Of a stretch of DNA of 42,415 nucleotides, positions 41,482 to 41,746 are shown piece by piece (position 1 is the stretch's first letter; each line of letters starts with the position of its first letter). The position numbers were made by a program, and so were the translations under genes. Origin of the DNA: Bryobacterales bacterium (GTDB lineage Bacteria > Acidobacteriota > Terriglobia > Bryobacterales > Bryobacteraceae); contig DAHVTI010000130.1 in assembly GCA_027324255.1 (NCBI GenBank), positions 1 through 42,415 on the forward strand, written 5' to 3'. Below the pieces are notes generated by a model. That model had not been told where the DNA came from and searched no databases. It was given only the letters and a program-made list of their open reading frames with translations.

Positions 41482-41569
41482 CGGTTCAATTCGATCCTCT
41501 CGTTGTTTTTCGGCCCCGGTCCGGGGCCTGGGCATTCGCATGTGGGCTTGTGCCGGCGGGTACCTAACG

Positions 41570-41607
41570 AAAAGGGCCACCGCCGGGGTTTGCCCGCCTG
41601 GTGGCCC
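41570..41607 (-). terminator. Attenuator terminator in the ilvB leader
   Basis: Minus strand GGGCCACC-AGGCGGGCAAACCCCGGC-GGTGGCCC-TTTTCGTT; perfect 8-bp arms plus GC-rich inner pairing and a U-tract. Confidence 0.82.
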
Positions 41608-41632
41608 TGGTTTCTGGTCGAGTAAGGCTCAC

Positions 41633-41746
41633 TCAGGCGGAGGCCGGTACGGCTACTCCGATCCGAATGAGCCCTACAGTGACAAAAATGGAGACGAGGT
41701 TGGCCTTCAGGAGCTGCTGGTAACAGACTGAGGAGCCAAACGCCAT
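41633..41746 (-). CDS. ilvL: ilv leader peptide (37 aa), MAFGSSVCYQQLLKANLVSIFVTVGLIRIGVAVPASA
   Basis: AAGGAG SD 4 nt before ATG; residues 17-33 contain 10 Leu/Val/Ile of 17; stop lies 25 nt before the terminator hairpin. Confidence 0.82.
   Translation of the reverse strand: MAFGSSVCYQQLLKANLVSIFVTVGLIRIGVAVPASA

Follow-up and report, generated by a model that had tools for sequence, protein, structure and literature searches.

The attenuators of Escherichia coli ilvB, ilvGMEDA and leu combine control codons with mutually exclusive 1:2, 2:3 and 3:4 pairings, features that recur at the locus described here. In contrast to this locus, the proteobacterial ilv and leu leaders are preceded by Shine-Dalgarno sequences, and there is no sequence relation between the two. 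A closer parallel is the ilvBNC attenuator of Corynebacterium glutamicum, or ilvB-II motif, in which a Val/Ile/Leu-rich leader peptide is encoded upstream of ilvBNC together with a terminator and an antiterminator, and transcription starts one nucleotide from the leader start codon, much as is predicted here (PMC11857589, PMC10272879). However, the C. glutamicum leader has 15–17 residues, another RNA sequence and structure, and belongs to another phylum, whereas the leaders of this study mostly have 25–51 residues and an antiterminator lying across the leader stop codon. In Mycobacterium tuberculosis ilvB1NC, stalling at branched-chain amino acid codons, including GUA, exposes the antiterminator, which is covered again by a ribosome that has reached the stop codon, allowing the terminator to form (PMC13236596); the same events are inferred for the Bryobacterales element, which differs in leader sequence and phylum. 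A leaderless leader peptide in a ribosome-dependent attenuator, again predicted here, has been described for Sinorhizobium meliloti trpL (PMC7298713), which carries Trp codons and controls the trpE operon.

The locus of this study lies in a 42,415-nucleotide stretch of DNA from a Bryobacterales bacterium (contig DAHVTI010000130.1), referred to below as the window. Transcription of the ilvB-ilvN-ilvC-cimA operon is very probably controlled there by a ribosome-mediated attenuator that senses Val, Ile and Leu through a leader predicted to be leaderless. The mechanism is of a known kind; what is new is its occurrence in this clade, how deeply it is conserved, and a conserved dyad further upstream. 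The portions of the literature consulted yielded no earlier report of such an attenuator in this order of soil bacteria; older work, for example Lopatovskaya 2010, as cited in PMC4833913, may include a related prediction. With its natural variants, the order lends itself to testing how such elements adjust the position of the stall, the rarity of their codons and the strength of the antiterminator, and to studying attenuators with leaderless initiation beyond Actinobacteria and Alphaproteobacteria.

The ilvB upstream region of the window

The operon genes, the leader with its RNA segments, the promoter-like motif and the dyad all lie on the minus strand. The putatively controlled operon begins with ilvB, the acetolactate synthase large subunit (41481–39748; TIGR00118, 780.8 bits), and continues with ilvN, the small subunit (39735–39199; TIGR00119, 162.4 bits), ilvC, ketol-acid reductoisomerase (39146–38139; NF004017, 546.1 bits), and cimA, citramalate synthase (38069–36459; TIGR00977, 684.7 bits). 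The amino acids presumed to be sensed are thus the products of the operon. Upstream of ilvB, a leader peptide gene (41749–41633) runs from GTG (41749–41747, the predicted +1) or ATG (41746–41744) to TGA (41635–41633), giving 38 or 37 codons, respectively; the ATG frame (41746–41633) translates as MAFGSSVCYQQLLKANLVSIFVTVGLIRIGVAVPASA. The stop codon is followed, after a gap of 25 nt, by an intrinsic terminator (region 3:4, 41607–41570) comprising the hairpin GGGCCACC..GGTGGCCC (41607–41574; −27 kcal/mol, z −3.2) and TTTT (41573–41570), which provides a UUUU tail. Leader, hairpin, TTTT and gap were all found where the original prediction had placed them. The U-tract is short (UUUUCGUU), which counts against attenuation, and the hairpin is not listed by a simple terminator scan, probably because its stem is interrupted. 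A further strong GC hairpin (GGCCCCGGACCGGGGCC, 41510–41533) lies between the terminator and the ilvB start; it has no U-tract and is not evidently conserved.

The antiterminator segment UCCGCCUG spans the leader stop codon. Its 5′ half (region 2, TCCGCCTG, 41641–41634) is complementary to region 3 (CAGGCGGG, 41600–41593), the 3′ half, which lies inside the 5′ arm of the terminator. The exact complementarity of CCGCCTG (41640–41634) to CAGGCGG (41600–41594), noted in the original prediction, was confirmed, and is backed by the cognate pairing tests described below; together, these indicate that antiterminator and terminator exclude one another. A feature missed by the original prediction emerged on folding the stretch 41700–41563 (−69 kcal/mol, z −5.6): an alternative leader hairpin (region 1:2, 41677–41622). 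In this genome, the modelled fold suggests that this hairpin can hide the antiterminator segment when the leader is not translated, or when the ribosome stalls too early.

On its own, the V/I/L content of the window leader is unremarkable (13/37 codons, P=0.07); a chosen 18-codon stretch has 10/18 (P=0.003, uncorrected). As this content is weak in isolation, the case for attenuation rests on relatives.

Conservation and covariation in relatives

The window IlvB was located in 60 related genomes, its closest match among named records being in Bryobacterales MAGs (71% identity). DNA upstream of ilvB was compared at 50 loci, and 48 relatives form the comparative case. Leader stops were curated, partly by eye; an automatic stop search missed approximately one-third of the loci. 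All 34 family loci examined, one locus in family f2 and most of those in family f3 have the same layout: a short V/I/L-rich frame whose stop lies within a segment resembling CCCCGCC-TGA, followed by a terminator and by ilvB. Pro-Ala or Pro-Gly are the last two residues of most of these frames, which vary in length from 18 to 51 codons. By sequence, nearly all genomes of the family and most of the two sister families of the order share this layout, which the comparative data place far beyond chance.

The terminator stem covaries: 97.7% of cells are paired, 27 cells carry double changes, none of 500 shuffles scores as high, and sliding the partner breaks the pairing. As MAFFT places region 3 one base off between subgroups, covariation of the antiterminator was assessed by comparing cognate segments with segments exchanged between species. 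Run length is 7.54 for cognate against 6.18 for non-cognate pairs (35 loci, strict anchor) and duplex energy −17.6 against −15.7 kcal/mol (all 48 loci), neither difference being matched in 20,000 permutations, although kinship inflates both tests and part of the covariation is shared ancestry. A smaller effect persists when the test is restricted to the family (5/20,000). The signal is strongest at the stop-spanning segment, with neighbouring segments weaker. A double change within the same genus converts CCGCCTG/CAGGCGG to CCGTCTG/CAGACGG, and further compensating pairs among relatives are TTCGCCTG/CAGGCGAA, GCCTGCT/AGCAGGC and CCCCGGT/ACCGGGG. Pairing is weak in L019, L023 and L026.

Putative control codons and modelled ribosome position

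The original prediction had proposed aligning ilvB upstream regions in search of a conserved V/I/L-rich leader and covarying stems, and had made its case depend on conservation of the leader codons. In addition to the covarying terminator stem, the alignment reveals such conservation: V/I/L account for 59% of leader codons −20 to −5 (counted from the stop) in the family, and for 46% in f2/f3, whereas the operon has 23%. Only the leader's own reading frame is enriched, with a fraction of 0.55 in frame 0 and of 0.21 and 0.05 in the two alternatives. Across codons −16 to −5, the V/I/L fraction among relatives is 0.41–0.91 per position, with a mean of about two-thirds; in the window, this putative control zone (41683–41648) reads GTC ACT GTA GGG CTC ATT CGG ATC GGA GTA GCC GTA. 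Leaders also favour codons that the operon seldom uses. GTA makes up 54% of Val codons in leaders against 1% in the operon, ATT 60% against 12% of Ile codons, and CTT 51% against 3% of Leu codons. GTA occurs 82 times in frame against once and not at all in the other two frames, and each of the eight close relatives compared has GTA at positions −5 and −14. Rare control codons are expected to sharpen the sensitivity of attenuation to tRNA shortage. A codon usage derived from greedily chosen open reading frames of the window was discarded, as antisense frames may have been included.

The structural consequences of ribosome position were modelled with a ribosome covering 12 nt from the first base of the A-site codon, the free RNA being folded before the last terminator arm is made; the model is one of simple minimum energy, not kinetics. 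Modelled stalls at codons −6 to −16 give the antiterminator in 41–44 of 44 loci, and a stall at codon −5 in 32/44. From codon −4 to the stop, the antiterminator forms in none of the 44 loci, and upstream of −16 it is less frequent. In the window RNA, a leader hairpin of 20–23 pairs wins for modelled stalls at codon −17 or earlier. The V/I/L-rich zone from −5 to −16, derived independently, coincides with the zone in which stalling gives the antiterminator. The folding model thus agrees with selection of the structure by ribosome position.

Promoter-like motif, leader start and upstream dyad

Upstream of the leader, a predicted −35 element, TTGCAT (41784–41779), is separated by a 17-bp spacer from a predicted −10 element, TACCCT (41761–41756; consensus TANNCT). 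The family promoter reads TTGCAT-N17-TANNNT, with the 17-bp spacer in 31/34 relatives; TTG is invariant and CAT 97–100% conserved in 31 aligned family members, values to be read with the search pattern, which required TTG[CT][AG]T plus the A and last T of the −10 element. In 24 of the 34 relatives a start codon lies 6–9 nt past the −10 element, where approximately two would be expected by chance (34 × 4/3 × 3/64). From the conserved promoter and this distance, transcription is predicted to begin no more than 3 nt from the leader start codon, and translation is probably that of a leaderless mRNA. Three Acidobacteria genomes have 13% of genes predicted to be leaderless (PMC3160421). Leaderless initiation is not universal, however, as in 10/34 relatives the leader start lies at least 12 nt after the −10 element.

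The AAGGAG that the original prediction read as a Shine-Dalgarno sequence is present (41754–41749), but its proposed role in ribosome binding is probably wrong: only 2 nt before the ATG, it is too close, it lies at or upstream of the predicted +1, and it is not conserved, being absent from relatives such as L004 (TAAATTGTG) and L018 (GTTTTCGTG). L022 and L025, which have longer distances, carry AAGGAG or AAGGA at a more normal spacing from the start.

Further upstream is a dyad of the T-N11-A type, ATAA-N7-TTAT (41811–41797), centred approximately −55 from the predicted transcription start. In the family it takes the form AT.A-N7-T.AT, 13–27 nt before the −35 element, with conservation of up to 1.8 bits per column in 31 relatives. 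The combination of dyad and promoter is found at a single place in the whole genome, and the dyad is also found at L054 and L152, where the attenuator is missing. It is possibly an activator or repressor operator, and the T-N11-A spacing suggests a LysR-type or similar regulator. It is tempting to speculate, although we consider this less likely than not, that the order uses a combined switch in which a regulator bound at about −55 drives transcription from a promoter with the leader start as the first codon to be transcribed, uniting initiation control and leaderless attenuation in one compact module.

Proposed mechanism and alternative explanations

From these sequence features, we infer that transcription would start at the leader start codon, or no more than about 3 nt away, and that the leader would be translated without an untranslated leader sequence. 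With charged Val, Ile and Leu tRNAs plentiful, the ribosome would reach the stop codon and cover region 2, region 3 would pair with region 4, and RNA polymerase would terminate. When one of these tRNAs is short, the ribosome would stall approximately 6–16 codons short of the stop, on triplets that the operon seldom uses (GUA, AUU). Region 2, left free, would then pair with region 3 while region 4 has yet to be synthesized, and transcription would continue into the operon. In the case of no translation or a very early stall, the leader hairpin could hide region 2 in this genome, restoring termination. The ilv/leu logic of the original prediction, stalling at V/I/L codons set against masking at the stop codon, is thereby supported by conservation, covariation, codon bias and stall geometry.

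It might be argued that leader and terminator are real but that control is not codon-specific, the short gene marking a constitutive partial terminator or a switch that depends on Rho or RNA polymerase; ilvB of Streptomyces has been the subject of such a debate. In S. coelicolor ilvB, mutating the candidate control codons was without effect, as cited in PMC1262725, and several f3 relatives have no clear U-tract. Such an arrangement would, however, leave unexplained the strong in-frame V/I/L enrichment and the operon-rare codons, placed where stalling would matter, as well as the conserved stop-spanning complementarity, and we regard it as improbable. Even less probable is that the leader specifies a small hydrophobic peptide with a function in the membrane or in trans, its gene being terminated by the hairpin. 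The peptide is indeed hydrophobic and conserved, and the Sinorhizobium attenuator leader peptide peTrpL acts in trans (PMC7298713), but its sequence shifts without evident restriction between V, I and L and its length varies as freely, whereas the choice of codons is under constraint and the antiterminator incorporates the stop codon.

Among Firmicutes, T-boxes are regulators of ilv genes. In the same phylum ppGpp riboswitches also control them (PMC10272879), raising the question of whether the element is a ligand-binding RNA of either type. Its conserved part is a coding frame plus a terminator, and Rfam searches gave no family at gathering score and only chance-level matches at E up to 10, making this the most remote of the explanations considered here. 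Codon-dependent attenuation by the translating ribosome accounts best for the features of the locus, and is the reading followed below.

Distribution and variation

In the genome of the window, a covariance model detects a single full element, at ilvB (88 bits); the second-best site matches in the terminator alone (27 bits). Among 200 genomes of the class, 41 of the same family match, including that of the window. Four matches above 34 bits fall outside the order, all upstream of ilvB. Matches below 31 bits were rejected as ordinary terminators or as not near ilvB. In L139 and L140, both outside the order, the stop-spanning segment and the terminator arm are replaced by unrelated sequence; judged by eye, the new segments are again complementary, for example GGATGATG with CATCATCC in L140. 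A scan of genome contigs yielded few relatives, and the model matched none of them. The layout is absent from both loci compared from other families of the class (L050, L051). Among 20 further loci, all from other families of the class, the DNA upstream of ilvB has a terminator close to the gene in only two (L152, L162); the element is therefore not class-wide.

Within f3, the U-tract is poor or missing in L043–L046 and L048, which retain a leader-like frame and complementary segments; in L043, the leader stop codon is missing at this place. These loci have possibly switched to another mode of termination, or are decaying. L054, from a named Bryobacterales MAG, keeps promoter and dyad upstream of ilvB (at about 1800–1990), followed by a short frame with neither a V/I/L run nor a terminator, and by its sequence has apparently lost the attenuator. 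Upstream of ilvB, L162 (G096) has a short frame unlike those described above, containing four consecutive Val codons (..RKIVVVVRP..), and a strong terminator. Together these probably form an independent attenuator of ilvB, in a further family of the class.
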